From Roseomonas sp. (GTDB lineage Bacteria > Pseudomonadota > Alphaproteobacteria > Acetobacterales > Acetobacteraceae), in the NCBI GenBank assembly GCA_020250005.1, contig JADCES010000083.1, forward strand, positions 1-32,859: a stretch of 32,859 nt of DNA, given 5' to 3'. The position numbers and the translations under genes were made by a program. Position 1 is the stretch's first letter, and every line of letters begins with the position of its first letter. The notes below the pieces were generated by a model. It was not told where the DNA came from. It was given only the letters and a program-made list of their open reading frames with translations, and ran no database searches. This document shows, piece after piece, positions 6,194 to 29,250 of the stretch.

Positions 6194-6232
6194 AGCCTTG
6201 CGTTGCGGGGGCCGGCAGTGCTTTCTGGCGTG

Positions 6233-7081
6233 ATGAAACTGCTTTCCGGTCATGCCCGGCTCGCCGGGGTTTTCGGCCATCCGGTCACCCATTCCCGCTC
6301 GCCACGCCTGCACGGGTTCTGGCTGCAACGCTATGGCATTGATGGGGCCTATATTCCGCTTGGGGTGGCGCCGGAGCGCTTTGGTGCAGCGGTGCGGTCG
6401 TTGGTGGATCTCGGCTTTCGCGGCGCCAATGTCACCATTCCGCATAAGCTTCCGGCCTTTGAGATTTGCGATGAGGTCGCGCCCTTCGCGCGCCGCGCCG
6501 GGGCGGTGAATACGCTGATTTTCCGCGATGGCCGGATTGAGGGCTCCAATACCGATGGCTTCGGCTTTCTGGAAAGCATTCGCGAAGCAGCGCCCGGGTG
6601 GCGCGCTGATGCTGGCCCTGCGATGCTTTTGGGGGCAGGTGGTGCAGCGCGGGCCATTGCAGCCGCTTTGCTCGATGCCGGTGCGCCGCGCGTGACGCTG
6701 GTGAACCGTACTGCTGCCAAGGCCGAGGCTTTGGCACGGGATCTGGGCGGACCAATCCAAGTGGCGGATCGGGCGCCCTTGGAAGACGCGGCTTTGGTCG
6801 TGAACACAACCTCGCTCGGCATGCAGGGTCAGCCGGGGTTGGAATTGGATTTGGCGCCTTTGCCGGCCAGCGCGGTGGTGGCAGATATTGTCTATGTGCC
6901 GCTCGAAACCCGGCTTTTGGCGGCGGCGCGGGCGCGCGGCCTAGTTGCGGTAGATGGGCTTGGCATGTTGCTGCATCAGGCGCGGCCGGGTTTTGAGGCT
7001 TGGTTTGGCGTCGCGCCACAAGTCGACCAGGCGCTGCGTGATGTGGTGGCGGCCGATATCCCGAAACGGGATGGCGCATGA
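6233..7081 (+). CDS. aroE: Shikimate dehydrogenase (NADP+)
   Basis: Reduces 3-dehydroshikimate to shikimate in aromatic amino acid synthesis. The 282-residue protein has the N-terminal substrate motif HPVTHSRSPRLH, catalytic Lys72 in GANVTIPHK and Asp108 in SNTDGFGF. The NADP-binding loop GAGGAARA is followed by the VNRT dinucleotide-binding segment. ATG 6233 gives the canonical N-terminus just before the AGVFGHPV block; in-frame TTG (6203) and GTG (6230) codons are alternatives, and no strong Shine-Dalgarno decides. The stop overlaps the coaE start in ATGA, so translation is coupled. The aroE-coaE-dnaQ order is conserved near alphaproteobacterial origins. Confidence 0.95.
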   Translation: MKLLSGHARLAGVFGHPVTHSRSPRLHGFWLQRYGIDGAYIPLGVAPERFGAAVRSLVDLGFRGANVTIPHKLPAFEICDEVAPFARRAGAVNTLIFRDGRIEGSNTDGFGFLESIREAAPGWRADAGPAMLLGAGGAARAIAAALLDAGAPRVTLVNRTAAKAEALARDLGGPIQVADRAPLEDAALVVNTTSLGMQGQPGLELDLAPLPASAVVADIVYVPLETRLLAAARARGLVAVDGLGMLLHQARPGFEAWFGVAPQVDQALRDVVAADIPKRDGA

Positions 7082-7671
7082 AGATCATCGGCCTGACGGG
7101 CGGGATCGGCATGGGGAAATCCACCGCCTCGGCCATTTTTCGCCGGCATGGCGTGCCGATTTTCGATGCTGATCAGGCGGTGCACGCATTGCAGGCGGTG
7201 GGCGGGCGCGCAGTGCGGCCGATTGAAGCGGCTTTCCCAGGCACGACGCGCGGTGGTGCGGTAGATCGGGAAGCCTTGCGCCGCGCCGTATTGGCGAATC
7301 CTGCGGCCTTGAAGCAGTTGGAGCGTATTGTGCACCCGCTGGTGCGTGATGCCGAAAAGCGTTTTCTGGCAGCGGCGCGGCGGGCGGGGAAGTCCATCGT
7401 GGTGCTGGATATCCCTTTGTTGTTGGAAACCGGTGGCGAAAAGCGGGTTGATGAGGTTGTTGTAGTCTCCGCGCCCGCGGCGGTGCAGGCGGCGCGCGTC
7501 ATGCGTCGGCCAGGTATGACGCGCGAAAGGCTTGCCGCTATTCGCGCGCGGCAAATGCCGGATGCGGAAAAGCGCAGGCGGGCTGATGTGGTAATCCATA
7601 GCGGGCTGTCGCGGCATTTCGCCGTGGCTGCCATCAGGCGCCTGATGCACCGGCTAAGGGGGGCGGGCTGA
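7078..7671 (+). CDS. coaE: Dephospho-CoA kinase
   Basis: Last enzyme of coenzyme A synthesis, phosphorylating the 3'-hydroxyl of the ribose of dephospho-CoA. The 197-residue protein has a P-loop at residues 8-15 (GGIGMGKS; Met where Ser is more usual), the FDADQAVHAL substrate segment, HPLVRDAEKRF, and DIPLLLETGGE. Length is normal. It overlaps aroE by 4 bases and shares 1 base with the dnaQ start (TGATG), indicating a tightly packed operon. Confidence 0.95.
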   Translation: MKIIGLTGGIGMGKSTASAIFRRHGVPIFDADQAVHALQAVGGRAVRPIEAAFPGTTRGGAVDREALRRAVLANPAALKQLERIVHPLVRDAEKRFLAAARRAGKSIVVLDIPLLLETGGEKRVDEVVVVSAPAAVQAARVMRRPGMTRERLAAIRARQMPDAEKRRRADVVIHSGLSRHFAVAAIRRLMHRLRGAG

Positions 7672-8372
7672 TGCGCCAGATTGTGCTGGACACCGAAACC
7701 ACAGGACTTGATCCCCTGACCGGTGATCGCGTGATTGAAGTGGCAGCAGTGGAATTATTGAACCTGCTGCCAACGGGCGAGGTGTTTCACAGCCTGATTG
7801 ATCCGGAACGCGATATCCCGGCCGAGGCGTCACGCATTCATGGCTTCACCAATGGCGATGTCGCCGGCAAGCCGAAATTTGCTGACATCGCCGATGCGCT
7901 TTTGGCCTTTTTGGGCGATTCGGAGATCATTGCCCATAATGCGCCGTTCGATTTTGGTTTCCTCGATGCGGAGTTGTTTCGCTGCAATCGGCCCATCCTC
8001 GACCGCAGCCGCATGATTGACAGCCTGGCGATGGCGAAAACGCGCTATCCGGGCATGCCGAATAATCTTGATGCGCTTTGCCGCAGGCTTGGCGTGGATA
8101 ATTCGCTGCGCGGCAACCACAATGCCATTCTGGACTGCCAGCTTTTGGCGCAGGTCTATCTGGAAATGATGGGCGGCAAGCAGCCGGGGCTAGAATTGGC
8201 AGCGAAGGCGGCGCCGCGCCTTGTGACGCTGGAAGTGGAGAGGGTGGAGCGGGCCACATTGCTGATAACGCCACCAGCTGAGGCGCTGGCAGCCCATGAG
8301 GCCTTCGTCAAAGCCAAGATCAAGGACGCAATCTGGCTGAAGCCACCCTTCACGGCAGAGGAAGCTAACTGA
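7671..8372 (+). CDS. dnaQ: DNA polymerase III epsilon subunit (3'-5' proofreading exonuclease)
   Basis: A 233-residue DEDDh exonuclease. Exo I is LDTETTGLDP (Asp7, Glu9), Exo II is HNAPFDFGFLDAEL, and Exo III is the HNAILDCQLLAQ segment with its His and Asp. These bind the two metal ions used to remove misincorporated bases. The C-terminal part is the region that tethers epsilon to the alpha polymerase subunit by family knowledge. The start overlaps the coaE stop by one base. It ends facing hemE with only six bases between the stops. Confidence 0.94.
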   Translation: MRQIVLDTETTGLDPLTGDRVIEVAAVELLNLLPTGEVFHSLIDPERDIPAEASRIHGFTNGDVAGKPKFADIADALLAFLGDSEIIAHNAPFDFGFLDAELFRCNRPILDRSRMIDSLAMAKTRYPGMPNNLDALCRRLGVDNSLRGNHNAILDCQLLAQVYLEMMGGKQPGLELAAKAAPRLVTLEVERVERATLLITPPAEALAAHEAFVKAKIKDAIWLKPPFTAEEAN

Positions 8373-8381
8373 GGCGCCTCA
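8370..8381. repeat. 12-bp palindrome containing both convergent stop codons
   Basis: TGAGGCGCCTCA is a perfect palindrome. Its first three bases are the dnaQ stop and its last three are, on the other strand, the hemE stop. It could form a short hairpin at both mRNA ends, but there is no U-tract and no loop space, so it is not a typical intrinsic terminator. Confidence 0.7.
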
Positions 8382-9431
8382 ACTGCTCCGGATTATACGC
8401 ATCAATTGCGCGACATGCTCGGGCGGCGTTGGCGGAATGATGCCGTGACCCAGATTGAAGATGAAAGGCCGACCGCGCATGGCAGCCAGTATGCTGCGTG
8501 CCTCGGCTTCCAAGGCGGCGCCGCCCGCGACCAGAGCCAGCGGATCGAGATTCCCTTGGAGCGGCATGGTGGCCGGCACTGCCTGGGCGGCCCAGCGCGG
8601 ATCCATGCTGGTATCCATGGCCACCGCATCCACTGCCGCGCGGCTAGCGTAATCGGGCAGCATTGGCCCAGCCAGGCGCGGGAAACCAATGATGGGGGTG
8701 GTGGGGCAGCGCTTGCGGACGGCACGCGCAATAGCGGCTGACGGTTCGATCACCCAACGGCGGAATTGGCTCGGCGGCAGCAGCCCCGCCCAAGTGTCGA
8801 ACAGCATCAGCGCTTCGGCGCCGGCTTCCACCTGGGCCACAAGATATTCGGTGGTAGCATCCTGCAGAATGCGGATCAGGCGGCCGAAGCTGGCAGGGTC
8901 GCTAAACGCCATGCCGCGCGTGGCAGCAAAATCCTTGCTGCCGCGGCCTTCCACCATGTAGCAAGCAACGGTGAAGGGTGAGCCAGCAAAGCCGATGAGG
9001 GCCGTTTTGGGGTGATCCTGATTGAGGCCCGCACGGGTCAGTCGCACGGTCTCAAAAATCGGTGCAGCTTTCGCGAGCAAGCCATCCAGATTGAGCCCGC
9101 TAATGCCCTCGGCGGAGCGGATGGGGTCGAGCAAAGGCCCCTCGCCCTCGGCAAAGCGTAACCCCTGCCCCAAGGCCCAGGGCACCATCAGGATATCGGA
9201 AAACAGGATGGCGGCATCCATGCCATAGCGCCGGATGGGTTGCAGCGTGACCTCAGCCGCCAGATCGGGCGTGGTGCAAAGCGAGATGAAATCGCCTGCC
9301 TTGGCGCGTGTCGCGCGGTATTCGGGCAAATACCGGCCGGCCTGACGCATCAGCCATACGGGGGGGGGCCAGACGGCCTCTCCGGTCAAGACGCGCAAAA
9401 AGGGTTTGGCCCGGCTGGGCTCGTTTTCCAT
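8379..9431 (-). CDS. hemE: Uroporphyrinogen decarboxylase
   Basis: Converts uroporphyrinogen III to coproporphyrinogen III in heme synthesis. The roughly 350-residue protein carries the signature PPPVWLMRQAGRYLPEY, DAAILFSDIL for the substrate pocket, GFAGSPFTVACYM, and a C-terminal NLGHGI segment. The start at 9431 was preferred over ATG 9437 because an AGGAT Shine-Dalgarno lies 7 bases from 9431 but abuts 9437. A run of nine C's encodes the three prolines. hemE flanks the replication origin in Caulobacter and Rickettsia, which agrees with the adjacent noncoding gap. Confidence 0.96.
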   Translation of the reverse strand: MENEPSRAKPFLRVLTGEAVWPPPVWLMRQAGRYLPEYRATRAKAGDFISLCTTPDLAAEVTLQPIRRYGMDAAILFSDILMVPWALGQGLRFAEGEGPLLDPIRSAEGISGLNLDGLLAKAAPIFETVRLTRAGLNQDHPKTALIGFAGSPFTVACYMVEGRGSKDFAATRGMAFSDPASFGRLIRILQDATTEYLVAQVEAGAEALMLFDTWAGLLPPSQFRRWVIEPSAAIARAVRKRCPTTPIIGFPRLAGPMLPDYASRAAVDAVAMDTSMDPRWAAQAVPATMPLQGNLDPLALVAGGAALEAEARSILAAMRGRPFIFNLGHGIIPPTPPEHVAQLMRIIRSS

Positions 9432-9455
9432 TTCCATATCCTGAACCTAAGCATT

Positions 9456-9468
9456 GAATCTAAGATTC
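9456..9468. repeat. 13-bp palindrome with two GANTC sites
   Basis: GAATCT-A-AGATTC is a perfect inverted repeat 25 bp upstream of the hemE start. Each arm contains a GANTC motif, the target of the CcrM methylase common in alphaproteobacteria. It may be a methylation-sensitive control element for hemE or the origin; the role is inferred. Confidence 0.6.
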
Positions 9469-9494
9469 TGAAAGATGAGGGTGATTGTAGTGCC

Positions 9495-9503
9495 TGTGGA
9501 TCA
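9495..9503 (-). promoter_or_regulatory. DnaA box, G-box type
   Basis: The minus strand reads TGATCCACA, one base from the consensus TTATCCACA and the same as the moderate-affinity G-boxes described in the Caulobacter origin. It lies in the hemE-ppsR gap. Confidence 0.65.
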
Positions 9504-9701
9504 TGGGGAGGCAAGCGCCGCCAATTCCATCCACAGATTTTTCCCCGGGTGGCTTTTGCCCTGATGGCTGCTGTGGTCGTGGAAGTTTGCGCTTTTGCCG
9601 GTTGTGGGGGAGGGGCCGGAAAAAGCATTCAGGCTTGCGTGATGGGGGTGTTTCATCCTCATTATGCGCCAGGGCGGGCTCAGTGGCGAAAACCACCCCC
9701 G

Positions 9702-9710
9702 TTATCCACA
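9702..9710 (+). promoter_or_regulatory. Perfect DnaA box
   Basis: TTATCCACA matches the DnaA consensus exactly, 23 bp before the ppsR start codon. It is followed by a GACTC (GANTC) motif at 9713-9717. Confidence 0.75.
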
Positions 9711-9733
9711 TCGACTCACGGAATTCTCCCGCC

Positions 9734-10624
9734 ATGGTTCACAGGCAAATCAATCTGCACCTGGTGTCGGATTCCACCGGGGAAACGCTGCAATCCATCG
9801 CCCGGGCCACGCTGGCGCGGTTTGATGATCATCATGTGGTGGATCACCGCTGGAGCCTGATCCGATCCCGCCTGCAATTGGACCGGGTGCTAGAGGGGAT
9901 CCAGCACGAACCAGGGCCAGTGCTCTATACGCTTGTGGATTCGAGCCTGCGGCATGTGCTGGAAGAAGCTTGCCAGCGCATGGGCGTAACCTGCCTATCG
10001 CCACTCGATCCGGTGATGGCGCTATTGCAGGAAGCGACAGGCGTGCGCGCCCGCGAAAAGCGCGCGGCACAGCATGTGATGGATGCGGATTACTTCCGCC
10101 GCATTGACGCGATGCATTACGTGCTGTCGCATGATGACGGCCAGGGGACGGTCGGCATCCGCAATGCCGATGTCGTGTTGGTCGGGGTTTCGCGTAGCAG
10201 CAAGACGCCAACCTGCTTTTATCTGGCCAATCGCGGCATCAAGGCAGCCAATGTGCCAATTGTGCCAGGGGCGACACTGCCTGAGATTCTGAATGATCCG
10301 CCCTGTCCGGTGGTGGGGCTTTATATCGAGGCCAATGCCCTGATTGATATCCGGCGCCACCGCCTGAAGATTATTGGCGGCCAGGGCGTTCGGCATGACA
10401 CGACAGAATACATTGACCCTGAGGCGGTGAAGGCGGAAATCATCGCGGCGCGCCGGCTTTGCACCGCTCAGGGCTGGCCCGTGATTGATGTGACCCGCCG
10501 CAGCATTGAAGAAACTGCTGCGACAGTGTTGCAATTGATGGAAGCCTGGCACGCCAGGCGGCGTGAGACCAAGCCGGCCCCGGCGCCTGAGGATCCCGCC
10601 GCAGGCGTGATCGGCAAGGTCTGA
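9734..10624 (+). CDS. ppsR: Pyruvate, phosphate dikinase regulatory protein (DUF299 kinase/phosphorylase)
   Basis: Bifunctional enzyme that inactivates PpdK by ADP-dependent phosphorylation of a Thr beside the catalytic His, and reactivates it by Pi-dependent dephosphorylation. The 296-residue protein begins [19 protein letters not shown], the family opening. It has the DUF299 P-loop [10 protein letters not shown] at residues 151-160, followed by [20 protein letters not shown] 9734 was chosen because homology begins there; the in-frame extension runs through the origin region. DUF299 proteins act on either PEP synthase or PPDK. Because ppdK lies in this window, PpdK is the likely target. This is the RP001 gene beside the Rickettsia/Caulobacter origin. 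Confidence 0.95.
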
Positions 10625-13392: not shown

Positions 13393-13408
13393 TGTTTCAC
13401 GTGAAACG
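13393..13408. promoter_or_regulatory. parS: parS centromere site 1
   Basis: TGTTTCACGTGAAACG matches the universal parS palindrome TGTTTCACGTGAAACA in 15 of 16 bases. It sits between the ferredoxin gene and mnmE, about 3.7 kb from the predicted oriC. ParB, encoded at 18010, would load here. The next bases (GAGG) form the mnmE Shine-Dalgarno. Confidence 0.93.
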
Positions 13409-14752: not shown

Positions 14753-16630
14753 ATGACGAGCGCGGATTTGACCTTTGATGTGGTGGTAGTGGGTGGCGGC
14801 CATGCCGGCTGCGAGGCCGCGGCGGCCGCGGCGCGCTTTGGCGCGCGCACCCTGCTTCTTACCCATAAGATTGAAACCATTGGCGAAATGTCCTGTAACC
14901 CGGCCATTGGCGGGGTCGGGAAGGGGCATCTGGTTCGCGAAATTGACGCCCTGGATGGGATTATGGCGCGCGCGGCGGATGCGGCAGCCATTCACGTCAA
15001 GATGCTCAATCTGTCGAAGGGGCCAGCGGTGCGCGGGCCGCGCGCCCAGGCGGACCGCCGGCTTTATCGCGAAGCTGTGCAGGCGCTGCTCCGCGCCCAG
15101 CCAAATCTCACCATCATGGCCGGCGGTGCGGAGGGGCTGGAGCTTGACCAGGCAGGTGCGCTTGCCGCGATCATCACCGCTGATGGCCAGCGTATACGGT
15201 GCGGGGCGGCGATCATCACCACCGGCACATTCCTGCGCGGCGAAATCCATATCGGCGAAAAGCGCTTTCCAGCCGGCCGAGTGGGAGACGCACCGGCGCT
15301 TGGCTTGGCGCTCGCTTTTGAGCGCTTGGGATTGCCGCTCGCCCGCCTCAAAACCGGCACGCCGCCTAGGCTGGATGGTCGCACCATTGACTGGGCAGAT
15401 TTGGAAGCCCAGCCGGGGGATGATCCGCCCGAGCCACTTTCCTGGATGACCGAGCGCATCACCAACCGCCAGGTGACCTGCGGCATTACGGCGACGACGG
15501 CTGAGACTCACGCCATCATTCGCGAAAATCTCCAATCAAGTGCCGTCTATGGTGGCCGTATTCAGGGTGTTGGGCCGCGCTATTGCCCTTCCATAGAAGA
15601 CAAGGTGGTGCGGTTTGCCGAACGCGACAGGCACCAGATTTTCCTGGAACCTGAAGGGCTTGATGACCCGACAGTCTATCCAAACGGGATTTCCACCAGC
15701 TTGTCAGAAACGGTACAGGAACAGGTGGTGGCCTCCATCCCTGGGCTCGCCAGAGCCCGAATCCTACGCCCGGGCTATGCCATTGAGTATGATCATATCG
15801 ACCCACGCGCCCTCACTCCGATGCTGGAATTGCGCCAGGTACCGCGCCTATTCCTGGCCGGGCAGATCAATGGCACGACGGGGTATGAGGAAGCGGGTGC
15901 CCAAGGGCTGATAGCCGGGATCAATGCTGCCCGCCGCGCTTCAGGCGGCATTCCCGATGCAAGCTTCACGCGGAGTGAAGCCTATATCGGGGTTCTGGTG
16001 GATGATTTGACGCTGCAAGGCGTTTCCGAACCCTATCGTATGCTGACCGCGCGCGCGGAGCATCGCCTTTCGCTTCGGGCCGATAATGCGGGGCTCAGGC
16101 TTACGGAGCGCGGCATAGCATGGGGCTGCGTGGGTGCAGAACGTGCTGCGCGGCATCGCGCCTTTGCCGCGACAGTTCACGATGCCCTGGCGCGCGCCAT
16201 TGCCGATGGCGCGACGCCTGCCGCCCTTTCCCTTCTGGGTATCGCCGTGAACCAGGATGGCCGACGGCGCTCAGTGCTTGAGGTACTCGCCTTACCAGGG
16301 GTGGCGATAGGGAAGGTGGAAGCAGCCTTCCCTTGGTTGCGCGAAGTTGCCCCTGCCATCCGCATACAATTGGAGGCGGAAGCGCTCTACGCCCCTTATC
16401 TGCGCCGCCAGGAGGCCGAGCGGCGCCTTCTGGAGCGCGAAGAAAAGGCGGCAATCGCCGCGTCGCTTGATTTTGACGCTGTTGATGGCCTTTCGGCCGA
16501 AATGCGCCAACGCTTGAAGGCGGCGCGCCCCGCCACCCTTGGCGCTGCCGGCCGCGTTCAGGGCGTCACCCCCGCTGCCCTTGCGGCGCTTGCGGTGCAT
16601 CTGCGGCGCGACGCTCAACGTTTCACGTGA
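14753..16630 (+). CDS. mnmG: tRNA uridine-5-carboxymethylaminomethyl modification enzyme, FAD subunit
   Basis: FAD- and NADH-dependent partner of MnmE (formerly GidA). The 625-residue protein has the FAD Rossmann motif [12 protein letters not shown] near the N-terminus. It also has the family signature blocks [50 protein letters not shown] and [17 protein letters not shown]. Length fits. It starts 18 bp after mnmE. Its last codons and stop (16628-16630) lie inside parS site 2, and GTGA overlaps the rsmG start. Confidence 0.97.
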
Positions 16631-16634
16631 AACA
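16619..16634. promoter_or_regulatory. parS: parS centromere site 2, across the mnmG/rsmG junction
   Basis: CGTTTCACGTGAAACA matches the parS consensus in 15 of 16 bases, with the mismatch at the opposite end from site 1. The palindrome encodes the last mnmG codons (R-F-T-stop) and the rsmG start (GTG AAA CA-), so it is under coding as well as ParB-binding constraint. It is about 7 kb from the predicted oriC and 0.6 kb from parA. Confidence 0.93.
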
Positions 16635-17214
16635 TCGCCCGGAAACCACTGAACGGCTTGCAGCCTTTCGTGGCCTGCTGCTGCGCTGGAATGCCCGGAT
16701 CAATCTGATTTCGGGGGAAACCGCAGCTGAAATCGATCAGCGCCACATCGCTGATTGCGCGCAATTGCAGCCACTTTTGCCGGAGCATGGACCTATCGCT
16801 GACCTTGGCTCTGGCGCTGGCTTGCCAGGCTTGGTCTTGGCAATTTTGCAGCCCGAGCGCGAAATCCATTTGGTTGAGTCCGACAAGCGCAAGGCTGCGT
16901 TTCTGGTCGAAGCGAGTGCTCAGCTGAAGCTACCCATGGTCAGCGTGCATGCCTGCCGCGCGGAAAACGCCAAGCTCCCACCTTTATCAGCCATTACCGC
17001 ACGCGCCCTTGCCCCGCTGGCATCCCTATTGCCCTATGCCGCCAGGTTTCTGGCCCTAGGCGGCGTCGCATTGTTCCCCAAAGGCAGGACCGCCGAGAAA
17101 GAGTTGACGGAAGCCGCCCAGGACTGGCACTTCACCCTTGAGCGCTTTCCAAGTGCCACCAGCCCCGAAGCAACCATCCTGCGCCTGAGCAACATCCAAC
17201 GTGTCCAGCCCTAG
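16627..17214 (+). CDS. rsmG: 16S rRNA (guanine-527-N7)-methyltransferase
   Basis: Methylates G527 of 16S rRNA (formerly GidB). The 195-residue protein has [10 protein letters not shown] before the SAM-binding motif [15 protein letters not shown], then [15 protein letters not shown] and [19 protein letters not shown]. It starts at GTG 16627 within parS site 2, overlapping the mnmG stop by four bases; no other start fits the family N-terminus. Its 3' end overlaps parA by 14 bases. Confidence 0.95.
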
Positions 17215-18013
17215 CCCCGCCAGGCCGAAAATCATTGCCATCGCCAACCAAAAAGGTGGGGTCGGTAAGACCACGACAGCGATCAACCTTGCCACGGCGC
17301 TTGCCACCACACGGAAGGTTCTGCTGATAGACCTTGATCCGCAGGGCAATGCCTCCACCGGCCTTGGCCTGCCACGCCAGGAAAGGGGCCAGGGCAGCTA
17401 TGCTTTGCTGGTGGGTGCTGCGCCCCTGGCCGAACTTGTGAAGCCATCGCGCATCCCGCAGCTGGACCTGCTCCCGGCCGATGCCGATTTGGCCGGCGCT
17501 GAAATTGAATTGATAGATGTCGAAGCGCGCGAAAGGCGCCTGCTGAACGCCCTGGAAGTTGCCCAAGATACGCTGGCCGGTACGGACCTGATCATCATTG
17601 ATTGCCCGCCATCGCTCGGCCTGATCACGCTGAATGCCCTGGTCGCGGCGGATGAGGTTCTGGTCCCGCTGCAATGCGAATTCTTCGCGCTTGAAGGCGT
17701 ATCCCAAATCGCGCGCACCATTGAACGCGTCAGCAAAACCTTGAACCCGAACCTCAAACTCGGCGGCATTATCCTGACAATGTTCGATAAGCGCAACAAT
17801 TTGTCTGAACTTGTTGCGGCTGATGTCCGTGCCTTTTTTGGCGAAAAGGTCTATGAAACAATGATACCGCGCAACATTCGCATCACTGAAGCGCCATCGC
17901 ACGGCCTGCCTGTCCTGGTCTATGATCATCGCTCGGCGGGTGCCGAGGCTTATGTCGCGCTTGCACAGGAATGGATCCGCCGCCAAAAGCATCCGAAGGA
18001 AACGGCTCAATGA
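17201..18013 (+). CDS. parA: Chromosome partitioning ATPase ParA
   Basis: Deviant Walker ATPase that binds the nucleoid nonspecifically and moves ParB-parS complexes after replication. The 270-residue protein has the deviant Walker A motif KGGVGKTT (18-25), LLIDLDPQGNAS, and IIIDCPPSLGLIT for Walker B. It lacks an N-terminal helix-turn-helix, as in chromosomal (type Ib) ParA. GTG 17201 overlaps the rsmG end by 14 bases. The stop overlaps the parB start in ATGA. Confidence 0.97.
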   Translation: MSSPSPARPKIIAIANQKGGVGKTTTAINLATALATTRKVLLIDLDPQGNASTGLGLPRQERGQGSYALLVGAAPLAELVKPSRIPQLDLLPADADLAGAEIELIDVEARERRLLNALEVAQDTLAGTDLIIIDCPPSLGLITLNALVAADEVLVPLQCEFFALEGVSQIARTIERVSKTLNPNLKLGGIILTMFDKRNNLSELVAADVRAFFGEKVYETMIPRNIRITEAPSHGLPVLVYDHRSAGAEAYVALAQEWIRRQKHPKETAQ

Positions 18014-18867
18014 AAAAGCCCGCAAGGCTCGGCATGGGTCTCTCGGCCCTTATGGGCGATGCGCCGCCGGCGGCAAGCGCACCGCAGGCCGGCCCGCCGC
18101 GTAGCCTGCCGATCGCCTCAATCGAACCCGGCCCGTTCCAGCCACGTATGGAACCTGACCGGCAGGCGCTGCAGGAACTTGCGGCTTCCATCACTGAACA
18201 CGGCATTTTGCAGCCGCTGCTGGTGCGACCGAAGCCGGGTGCTGCGGGGCGCTACCAGATCATTGGTGGCGAACGCCGCTGGCGCGCGGCGCAGATCGCC
18301 AAACTCCATGATGTACCCGTTGTCATTCGCGATTTTGATGACCGGATGGCCATGGCGGCGGGCTTGGTCGAAAACCTGCAACGCGAAGACTTGAACGCGA
18401 TCGAGGAAGCGGAAGGCTTTGCGCGGCTGATCGATCAATTTGGCCTCAATCAGGAAAGCCTTGCGCGTGCGGTCGGCAAATCGCGCAGCCACATCGCCAA
18501 TACGCTCCGCCTGCTCAACCTGCCGCCTGCCATTCGCGAGCATCTGCGCGCCGGGCGCCTGAGTGCCGGGCATGCCCGCGCCCTGCTGGGGGCGGAGGAG
18601 CCGGAAAAGCTCGCGACACAAATCCTCACGCGTGGCCTTTCTGTGCGTCAGGCTGAAGCCATGGCCGCGGCGCAGCCGAAAAACCCTGAAGCACGGCGCA
18701 CCAATGCCAAGGATTCCGATACGCTGGCGCTGGAGCGCCAATTGCTTGAACGTCTTGGCTTGCAAGTCGCCATCAAGCATTTCGGCAAGGGCGGGCAGGT
18801 CACAATCAGCTATAACGACCTTGATCAGCTTGATGGCCTGATCCGGCTATTGATGCCTGACGCGTGA
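18010..18867 (+). CDS. parB: Chromosome partitioning protein ParB (CTP-dependent clamp)
   Basis: Loads on parS, spreads along flanking DNA as a CTP-gated clamp and stimulates ParA ATPase. The 285-residue protein starts KKPARLGMGLSALMG, a short ParA-contacting segment. It has the CTP-binding motif GERRWRA (87-93) and ENLQRE (121-126), then the parS-recognising helix-turn-helix at about 147-170 (NQESLARAVGKSRSHIANTL). The C-terminal about 45 residues form the dimerisation domain. ATG 18010 overlaps the parA stop. Two parS sites occur nearby (13393, 16619). Confidence 0.97.
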   Translation: MKKPARLGMGLSALMGDAPPAASAPQAGPPRSLPIASIEPGPFQPRMEPDRQALQELAASITEHGILQPLLVRPKPGAAGRYQIIGGERRWRAAQIAKLHDVPVVIRDFDDRMAMAAGLVENLQREDLNAIEEAEGFARLIDQFGLNQESLARAVGKSRSHIANTLRLLNLPPAIREHLRAGRLSAGHARALLGAEEPEKLATQILTRGLSVRQAEAMAAAQPKNPEARRTNAKDSDTLALERQLLERLGLQVAIKHFGKGGQVTISYNDLDQLDGLIRLLMPDA

Positions 18868-27467: not shown

Positions 27468-27554
27468 TGGTGCCCAGGAAAGGACTCGAACCTTCACAGC
27501 CTTGCGGCCACAGGTACCTGAAACCTGCGCGTCTACCAATTCCGCCACCTGGGC
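27468..27554 (-). tRNA. tRNA-Leu (anticodon CAG)
   Basis: The minus strand folds into a class II tRNA. The acceptor stem is GCCCAGG/CCTGGGC with discriminator A and encoded CCA (27470-27468). The D-arm is GCG-GAATTGGTAGA-CGC. The anticodon stem CAGGT/ACCTG encloses loop TTCAGGT (anticodon CAG, reading CUG). A long variable arm and T-arm GAAGG-TTCGAGT-CCTTT follow. The long variable arm confirms Leu. Its own promoter lies 34 bp upstream. Confidence 0.97.
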
Positions 27555-27616: not shown

Positions 27617-27816
27617 GGAGGAGTGCTTCGGGCGGGAGGTTGTGGGCGCTAGCGCGGACAACCGGCGCCCTGAGTTGTAAGGATAGCCGCGCGCCTGCTG
27701 CCCAAGAAGGGCCGCCGAGCCTATTTGAACGCAAAATTCCCAATATCATCAATTATCTAGAAGAATTGTTGAAATAGGATTAGACAAATGATACTACTTA
27801 AACGCAAGCGAGCGAC
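27617..27816. other. Spacer upstream of the ATPase gene, A+T-rich in its second half
   Basis: No gene is seen. From about 27720 the composition becomes markedly A+T-rich against the G+C-rich surroundings, as expected of a promoter region or acquired DNA. A possible TTGAAA (near 27768) with GATACT 15 bases later could be the ATPase promoter, but the spacing is poor. Confidence 0.4.
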
Positions 27817-29250
27817 ATGCTGGAAATAGCCGAAAAAGACATTTTGCAAAGCCTGGAGCGTGACAACCCGTGGTGGGCTGATCAGGCCGGCGCTACCGGC
27901 GCGCTCTTCACCCATACGCGCGCCTATTTCGCGACCTTCAAGGACCTTGCCCTGAACTGGCAGGTGCGCCGCGCGCTTATTCTCATGGGGCCAAGGCGCG
28001 TCGGCAAGACAGTTATGCTTGAACAATTGCTACGACACGCCCTCAAGGACGGCTTCCCGCCCAAGCATATCCTCTTTGCGTCAATTGACACCCCGCTTTA
28101 CAGCGCCATGCCGCTTGAGCGCCTGATTTCCCTGTTCGAGAAACGAACCGGCCACGCCCCATCAGATCGCCGGATCATAATCTTCGATGAAATTCAGTAC
28201 CTGAAAAACTGGGAAATTCACCTGAAGGTTCTGACCGACAGGTTCCCGAATACGCGCTTCATCGCCTCAGGCTCCGCAGCGGCTGCGCTGCGTCTGAAAA
28301 GCCAGGAATCTGGGGCAGGGCGCTTTACCGATTTTTTCCTGCCGCCGCTGACATTCGCAGAATTCCTTGATTTCCAGGGCCTGGAGACGGAACTGATCCG
28401 CCCCAACCATCAGGGACCGAACCGTCGCTTCACCACAACGGATATCGGCGCGCTCAACCGCGTTTTCATTGATTACCTGAATTTCGGCGGCTATCCGGAA
28501 GCTGTCTTCAACTCGCAAATCCGCCAGAACCCCCAGCGCTATCTTGGCCGGGATATTGTGGACAAGGTCCTGCTGCGCGACCTGCCAAGCCTTTACGGCA
28601 TCCAGGATATTCAGGAGCTCAATCGGCTTTTCACCACCATAGCCTATCATTCCGGCCAAGAGATCAGCCTTGAAGGCCTCGCCAAAAGCTCAGGCGTCGC
28701 GAAGAACACCATTTCTCGCTATCTTGAATATCTTGAAGCGGCCTTCCTGATTGTTCGCGTGCGCCGCGTTGATGATGTTGGCCGCAGATTCCAAAGGATG
28801 CGCCAGTTCAAGGCGTATTTGACGAACCCTTCCATGCGGGCTGCCCTATTCGCGCCGCTCACCGAAGATGATGAGGCGATGGGCAACATGGCGGAGACCG
28901 CCATCTTCAGCCAATGGTTTCATTCGAAGGAACTTGGCAATATCCATTACGCACGCTGGAAATCAGGCCGACAGGATAGGGAAGTTGATTTAGTACGCGT
29001 GGACCCGGCCAGCTTACGGCCAGCCTGGGCCTATGAAATCAAATGGTCGGACCGTTTTGCCGAAAGCCCCGCCGAATTGAAGGGACTGATTGAATTTGCC
29101 AAGAAAAACCCGGGTCACCCAGTACCTGTGGGCGCATCAACCCGCAGTGTAACCGCCGAAACGATTGTGGATGGCGTCGTGATACGCCATTTTCCCTGCG
29201 CCCTGCATTGTTATCAGATTGGTCGGAATGTCATCGAAGAACCAGCCTAA
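27817..29250 (+). CDS. AAA_14/DUF4143-family ATPase with PD-(D/E)xK-like C-terminus
   Basis: A 477-residue protein. Walker A is GPRRVGKT (58-65), Walker B IIFDE (121-125), and a sensor-like RFIASGSAAAAL follows. A winged-helix segment (LEGLAKSSGVAKNTISRYLE) precedes the DUF4143 domain, whose EVDLV (Asp391) and EIK (Glu407, Lys409) residues match a PD-(D/E)xK nuclease core. The family (COG1373) is widespread, patchily distributed and often accessory; its function is poorly known, so none is assigned. It stands alone next to tRNA-Leu after an A+T-rich upstream stretch, consistent with horizontal gain. No integrase or attachment repeats were seen. The gene appears intact and ends at a shared hairpin with the convergent lipoprotein gene. 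Confidence 0.88.
   Translation: MLEIAEKDILQSLERDNPWWADQAGATGALFTHTRAYFATFKDLALNWQVRRALILMGPRRVGKTVMLEQLLRHALKDGFPPKHILFASIDTPLYSAMPLERLISLFEKRTGHAPSDRRIIIFDEIQYLKNWEIHLKVLTDRFPNTRFIASGSAAAALRLKSQESGAGRFTDFFLPPLTFAEFLDFQGLETELIRPNHQGPNRRFTTTDIGALNRVFIDYLNFGGYPEAVFNSQIRQNPQRYLGRDIVDKVLLRDLPSLYGIQDIQELNRLFTTIAYHSGQEISLEGLAKSSGVAKNTISRYLEYLEAAFLIVRVRRVDDVGRRFQRMRQFKAYLTNPSMRAALFAPLTEDDEAMGNMAETAIFSQWFHSKELGNIHYARWKSGRQDREVDLVRVDPASLRPAWAYEIKWSDRFAESPAELKGLIEFAKKNPGHPVPVGASTRSVTAETIVDGVVIRHFPCALHCYQIGRNVIEEPA

Follow-up and report, generated by a model that had tools for sequence, protein, structure and literature searches.

A putative chromosome replication origin in the hemE-ppsR gap of a Roseomonas-type member of the Acetobacteraceae

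Sites within and around the hemE-ppsR gap

The window, by which we mean the whole stretch of 32,859 nucleotides that was analyzed, derives from a 4.03 Mb draft genome in 325 contigs. At 9438-9733 it holds a 296 bp gap between two divergent genes, hemE on the minus strand (8379-9437; uroporphyrinogen decarboxylase, PF01208, 381 bits) and ppsR on the plus strand (9734-10624; COG1806/DUF299, Kinase-PPPase, PF03618, 281 bits). The initial annotation had predicted a chromosome replication origin here and had drawn the gap as 9432-9733; the gap is real, but that start falls 6 bases inside hemE. Rfam, searched at the gathering threshold, gave no known structured RNA in the gap and a sole match in the window, a tRNA at 27471-27554. 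Among the ppsR loci that we kept (80 of 204), the nearest genes belonged to MAGs that carry the labels Roseomonas sp., Rhodospirillales, Alphaproteobacteria or Asaia, with several apparently from lakes, and the next-nearest to Neoroseomonas species. The gap measured 296 bp in all 17 close relatives whose locus includes hemE. We rejected this constancy as special evidence, since the glyQ-aroE gap is equally constant (424 bp in 11 of 11). At 6203-9437, an aroE-coaE-dnaQ run leads toward hemE, unlike the order ppsR-maf-aroE-coaE-dnaQ beside the Caulobacter origin; the flanking genes therefore seem shuffled while the hemE|ppsR core is kept.

The gap holds several DnaA boxes (one perfect, one G-box, and one weak), each at the position that the initial annotation had given. 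Box 1, on the minus strand at 9495-9503, is an exact TGATCCACA, identical to the Caulobacter G-box; the available text of PMC4285127 gives TGATCCACA as the Caulobacter high-affinity box and TCCCCA as the W-box. Directly adjoining box 1 on the minus strand is a W-box-like hexamer, TCCCCA (9504-9509). Box 2 (9527-9535, plus strand) reads CCATCCACA, with two mismatches to TTATCCACA and a core-to-core distance of 35 from box 1, while box 3 (9702-9710, plus strand) is a perfect TTATCCACA. Conservation was assessed by column comparison of 19 gaps (17 non-redundant) that are similar to that of the window and share its exact length, 296 bp. Seven of nine columns were invariant in box 1, 13 of 15 in box 1 together with the hexamer (9495-9509), and eight of nine in box 3; the core TCCACA of box 2 was invariant in the 17 close-clade gaps. 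When equally long gap windows were scored, 33% were as conserved as box 1, 36% as box 2, and 9% as box 3, that is, boxes 1 and 2 are individually no better conserved than about one-third of such stretches.

The perfect box had been called notable on the ground that a given 9-mer is expected about 0.25 times in 33 kb. That figure assumed equal base frequencies. By measurement, the genome contains 20 perfect boxes in 4.03 Mb (eight in the reversed control), which predicts about 0.0015 for a stretch of 296 bp. Across the window, seven sites within one mismatch of TTATCCACA were found versus 2.7 expected, and none of 100 shuffles reached seven. There was no window-wide excess of sites within one mismatch of TGATCCACA (10 versus 6.4 expected, with 16 shuffles reaching 10). 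The inverted pair TGTGGA...TCCACA with 15 to 45 bases between occurs at three places in the genome, one of which is this gap, and its reversed control at two. Elsewhere in the same genome, a second, weaker match to the DnaA C-terminal domain (70 bits) lies at G000:C181:2763-2963, besides the one on contig C152.

Toward hemE, the A+T-richer stretch that had been placed at 9440-9480 proved real: stability within the gap is lowest for the 30-mer 9447-9477, and 54 of the 32,829 positions in the window have lower values. The gap as a whole has an A+T fraction of 0.45, compared with about 0.39 in the window. The least stable block coincides with the most conserved one, 9447-9478, in which 28 of 32 columns are invariant among the 17 relatives; 1.1% of equally long gap windows are as conserved, for a block that was picked after the alignment had been viewed. 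Judged from these sequence properties, we propose 9447-9478 as a putative DNA unwinding element. Within it lies GAATC-TAA-GATTC, a palindrome of two CcrM-type GANTC sites (9456-9460 and 9464-9468). The third GANTC site of the gap, GACTC at 9713-9717, adjoins ppsR and is poorly conserved (one of five columns invariant), and conservation over the 23 bases that precede ppsR is fairly high (mean 0.946). Across the entire window, stability is lowest near 27.77 kb, just upstream of an AAA_14/DUF4143 ATPase gene (27742-29250), which sits in a G+C-poorer stretch and was possibly acquired.

To the right of ppsR are the elements of a parABS system. One parS site, with one mismatch, lies just upstream of mnmE (13393-13408; 3.7 kb from the gap), and another, also with one mismatch, lies across the mnmG stop and the rsmG start (16619-16634; 6.9 kb from the gap). 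These are followed on the plus strand by parA (17201-18013) and parB (17971-18867). All of these parts had been reported within 9 kb; they are present, but the real span reaches 9.2 kb from the gap, marginally more. Both parS sites occur at nearly equal distances from ppsR in five close relatives. Among the 70 dereplicated family loci described below, 14 had parS within two mismatches, many of the loci being too short to reach the parS position. In the available text of PMC8116508, parAB is close to the computed ori in almost all genomes, with exceptions that include Rhodospirillales among others.

hemE-ppsR gaps across the family and the class

We surveyed 99 Acetobacteraceae loci, made up of the window, 80 loci of the ppsR search (80 of 204 kept), and 18 further stretches. 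The divergent arrangement hemE|gap|ppsR was found in 97; the exceptions were L007, which a contig end truncates, and L200, which has no hemE in its 11.9-kb stretch. Dereplication left 70 gaps (22.8 kb), which were set against flanks of up to 8 kb on each side (939 kb, mostly coding). Comparing hemE-ppsR gaps among relatives had been suggested as a check on the prediction, and the enrichment of boxes in these 70 gaps agrees with an origin. Sites within one mismatch of TTATCCACA numbered 123 in the gaps (5.39/kb, present in 65 of 70) and 45 in the flanks (0.048/kb). Perfect TTATCCACA boxes numbered 35 in the gaps (29 of 70) versus two in the flanks, and dinucleotide-preserving shuffles of the same gaps gave a mean of 0.04. 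No site within one mismatch of TTATCCACA was found in 35 control intergenic stretches (11.6 kb), nor in five of the 70 gaps (L034, L035, L059, L060, and L069).

The arrangement of the boxes is also shared. The core TGTGRA occurs in 64 of 70 gaps, the first one lying 56 to 59 bases from the hemE start in 35 of them; from this first core, the distance to the next TCCACA core is 35 bases in 29 gaps and 47 bases in 14. The two modes, 35 and 47 bases, differ by approximately one helical turn. Minus-strand boxes peak in decile 3 of the family gaps and plus-strand boxes in deciles 4 and 10. As for the landmark itself, a ppsR match was obtained in 205 of 249 sampled family genomes and was absent in 44, some of them single-contig, and therefore it does not cover the whole family. 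Four single-contig genomes without a ppsR match are G013, G025, G029, and G046; there, the origin must have another right-hand neighbor, or ppsR must be very diverged. Class-wide, 99 of 144 sampled alphaproteobacterial genomes gave a ppsR match. Of those 99 loci we fetched 40, all from other families, and 39 had the divergent hemE|ppsR gap; in the sole exception, G387, there was no hemE in the fetched stretch.

GANTC sites are dense in the same gaps. The 70 family gaps contain 270 (11.8/kb, present in 65 of 70), whereas dinucleotide shuffles gave 102 with a maximum of 127. The density is about 11 times that of control intergenic DNA (1.04/kb over 35 stretches, with two kinds of short stretch higher); the window has 1.13/kb. 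As to placement, 212 of the 270 sites fall in deciles 2-9, where decile 5 (45 sites) and decile 6 (40 sites) stand out as peaks, and a further 40 fall in decile 1. Seven other palindromic pentamers were at or below expectation in the family gaps (ratios 0.29-0.98), and GATC was not enriched (90 versus 129 in shuffles). The 39 gaps from other families have 6.5 GANTC/kb, 1.8 times mononucleotide shuffles compared with 3.5 times in Acetobacteraceae, so the enrichment is class-wide but stronger in this family. The available text of PMC3973325 describes GANTC as over-represented in alphaproteobacterial intergenic regions, on average more than 1.5-fold. The top count among the 70 gaps belongs to L167, from genome G236, with twelve GANTC, mostly GAGTC/GACTC, in 315 bp.

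Motifs of other origin regulators gave a different picture. Strict CtrA sites, TTAA-N7-TTAA, were absent from the window and from all 70 family gaps. As they were present in only 5 of 39 other-family gaps, we did not treat CtrA sites as a class-defining feature. With up to one mismatch allowed, the CtrA scan gave two sites, as in shuffles, and family and other-family gaps both stood at shuffle level. The generic IHF pattern WATCAANNNNTTR, which a divergent site could escape, occurred nowhere in the window and in one of 70 family gaps. CtrA or IHF control through canonical motifs is thus not supported, the scans being near-empty in the window and the 70 gaps. Upon searching for the regulators themselves, we found that the genome of the window encodes CtrA (375.5 bits), which was over the cut-off in five of eight genomes searched; in G100, the best CtrA match, at 168 bits, stayed below it. 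GcrA and a RAMA-domain protein, as in CcrM, were each present in six of six genomes searched, the window's own included. According to the portion of PMC2877005 at hand, CcrM and GcrA were retained in Rhodospirillales cluster D, where the CtrA relay is incomplete, and Granulibacter has no ctrA.

GC skew and the position of dnaA in relatives

A whole-genome GC-skew analysis had been proposed as a further check. With stretches sampled from relatives, it gave the expected polarity in all five chromosomes and in one of them a local minimum about 2.5 kb off the gap; in the window's own clade it gave no usable signal. We sampled 20 stretches, each 20 kb long, per chromosome for the family members G088, G216, G100, G045, and G236 (G216, G100, and G045 are single-contig; G088 and G236 are represented by their main contig), with denser sampling near the gap for all except G100. 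Raw GC skew was higher to the right of the gap than to the left in all five, which is the polarity expected of an origin, with one-sided P values of 0.028 (G088), 0.066 (G216), 0.00014 (G100), 0.008 (G045), and 0.047 (G236). The Fisher combined value was 1e-6, or 4e-4 without G100, for stretches that are not fully independent. At fourfold sites, the sign of the skew agreed in all five as well. The share of alternative positions scoring better than the gap was, in the same order, 0.16, 0.00, 0.00, 0.01, and 0.05 for raw skew and 0.28, 0.08, 0.00, 0.00, and 0.00 for fourfold skew. The best scan positions were off the gap by 0.08 Mb (raw) and 0.54 Mb (fourfold) in G088, 0.89 Mb (fourfold) in G216, 0.44 Mb (raw) in G045, and 0.33 Mb (raw) in G236. 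Since the best position is on or adjacent to the gap in some scans and up to 0.9 Mb off in others, in most genomes these data show polarity only and not place. G100 is by far the clearest, with a clear switch (raw skew +0.056 versus -0.054); across 160 kb of contiguous sequence spanning its contig ends, cumulative GC skew reaches its minimum at about base 301 of the contig, and the gap is approximately 2.3 to 2.7 kb further on.

Other strand signals were less uniform. TA skew agreed in three of five relatives, and gene orientation was opposite to the usual leading-strand bias in four of five, as judged by an ORF caller that was right for 12 of 15 window gene strands; a second caller, right for 6 of 15 window genes, gave 44 to 55% of coding bases as co-oriented. 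Because the callers are this unreliable (12/15 and 6/15), we place little weight on gene orientation and on the fourfold values, and gene-orientation bias was rejected as an origin test, the callers being unreliable and the result giving no support. The apparent lack of a leading-strand gene bias in the five sampled chromosomes, as seen with two crude ORF callers, would be unusual if it proved real with proper annotation.

Closer to the window, the close relative G249, examined over a 357-kb contig, had no skew switch at the gap (leading versus lagging P = 0.44); its best scan position was at +20 kb and its best raw upward change point at +126 kb from the gap. In the window itself, the skew is negative once more beyond about 16 kb. 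Skew within the clade is thus uninformative, and the origin call for this species therefore rests on homology and sites. The distance from dnaA to the gap along the shorter arc was 0.19 Mb in G100 (about 186 kb), 0.62 Mb in G045, 0.91 Mb in G216, 1.33 Mb in G236, and 1.72 Mb in G088; dnaA being far from the gap in all five, an origin at dnaA was rejected.

Origin reading, alternatives, and methylation

Because the gene neighbors, the DnaA boxes, the AT-rich stretch, the nearby parABS, the box enrichment, and the skew of five relatives all point to this gap, we consider it highly probable that the main chromosome has its DnaA-dependent oriC here, located as in Caulobacter. The original prediction is thereby supported by the neighbors, boxes, low-stability stretch, parABS, family enrichment, and relatives' skew polarity. 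From the sites, the family enrichment, and the agreement with the relatives' skew, we infer DnaA binding, melting, and initiation. In such a scheme, DnaA would bind box 1 on the minus strand, boxes 2 and 3 on the plus strand, and weaker sites, and a DnaA oligomer would form adjoining the hemE-side low-stability stretch at 9447-9478. The oligomer would then melt this stretch and load helicase so that replication proceeds both ways, and ParB, bound to the parS sites at 3.7 and 6.9 kb from the gap, would help to move the new origins apart.

An alternative that we regard as improbable places the true origin elsewhere and makes the gap no more than a bidirectional promoter region of hemE and ppsR, its boxes serving DnaA-controlled transcription. 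Both genes do start from the gap, and DnaA also regulates genes in Caulobacter. The conserved last 23 bases before ppsR fit a promoter too, and skew in the window's own clade lends the origin no independent support. Against this stand the raw skew polarity of the five relatives, which favors the gap region most strongly in G100, the remoteness of dnaA, a box density far above that of other intergenic DNA, and the spread of GANTC across the gap (deciles 2-9). Moreover, in Caulobacter the origin has been mapped to the corresponding locus (PMC1914354, in the text available). Even less probable, in our estimation, is an origin close to the gap yet outside it, with dnaA or the vicinity of the parS/parAB cluster as examples. 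Many bacteria initiate at dnaA, the parS sites are only 3.7 and 6.9 kb away, and sampled skew cannot resolve a few kilobases. Yet dnaA lies 0.19 to 1.7 Mb from the gap in the five relatives, the seven orf12436-mnmE gaps that we examined hold no DnaA site within one mismatch, and the box cluster sits in the hemE-ppsR gap.

Taking the gap as oriC, it is very probably an origin of a known kind, the Caulobacter/Rickettsia type, and otherwise ordinary, GANTC-rich, and without recognizable CtrA sites. Escherichia coli oriC likewise has DnaA boxes beside a low-stability element and dense adenine-methylation sites, with GATC (Dam) there instead of GANTC (CcrM) here and with other gene neighbors. The Rickettsia prowazekii origin was reportedly described by Brassinga in 2002 with CtrA and IHF sites, whereas the gap here has no recognizable ones. 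It has the same boundary genes, hemE and COG1806, and differs in A+T content, 82.55% there (PMC1914354, available text) and 45% here. In the same source, Caulobacter Cori, too, is located between hemE and COG1806, and the Cori locus is the mapped origin, in agreement with the initial annotation, which had called the hemE-DUF299 gap the known Caulobacter position. Further likenesses to Caulobacter crescentus Cori, as far as the available parts of the sources go, are the G-box TGATCCACA and W-box TCCCCA, one of each here (PMC4285127), a nearby parS, within 8 kb of Cori (PMC4468827), and GANTC sites within the origin (PMC3973325). Unlike Cori, for which five CtrA sites and one IHF site are described, the gap has no TTAA-N7-TTAA or generic IHF pattern; it is also shorter (296 versus 404 bp) and has a perfect TTATCCACA box.

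If correct, this reading locates the origin of replication in a Roseomonas-type lineage that has received little study and makes the hemE-ppsR gap a useful origin landmark in family members that keep ppsR. Computed origins of Rhodospirillales genomes are already in print (PMC8116508, available text); what is added here is the conserved architecture and the GANTC-rich layout without recognizable CtrA sites. A limited literature search (Acetobacteraceae, Granulibacter, Gluconobacter, and Roseomonas) returned no title or abstract on an experimentally mapped origin in the family.

With this layout, the idea that methylation controls origins in alphaproteobacteria can be put to the test. It is conceivable, though we think it rather unlikely, that the Acetobacteraceae origin swapped its main timing input, with dense CcrM (GANTC) sites replacing CtrA sites and the methylation state left by the fork gating re-initiation. 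In the clade of the window, these sites would include the conserved GANTC pair inside the putative unwinding element, and such a gate would be the alphaproteobacterial counterpart to Dam/SeqA at E. coli oriC. A methylation-gated origin in Acetobacteraceae is a possibility only, and the GANTC sites might just as well act in the control of hemE or ppsR by GcrA/CcrM. In the accessible text of PMC3973325, Caulobacter origins have several GANTC motifs, and loss of CcrM gave no initiation defect.
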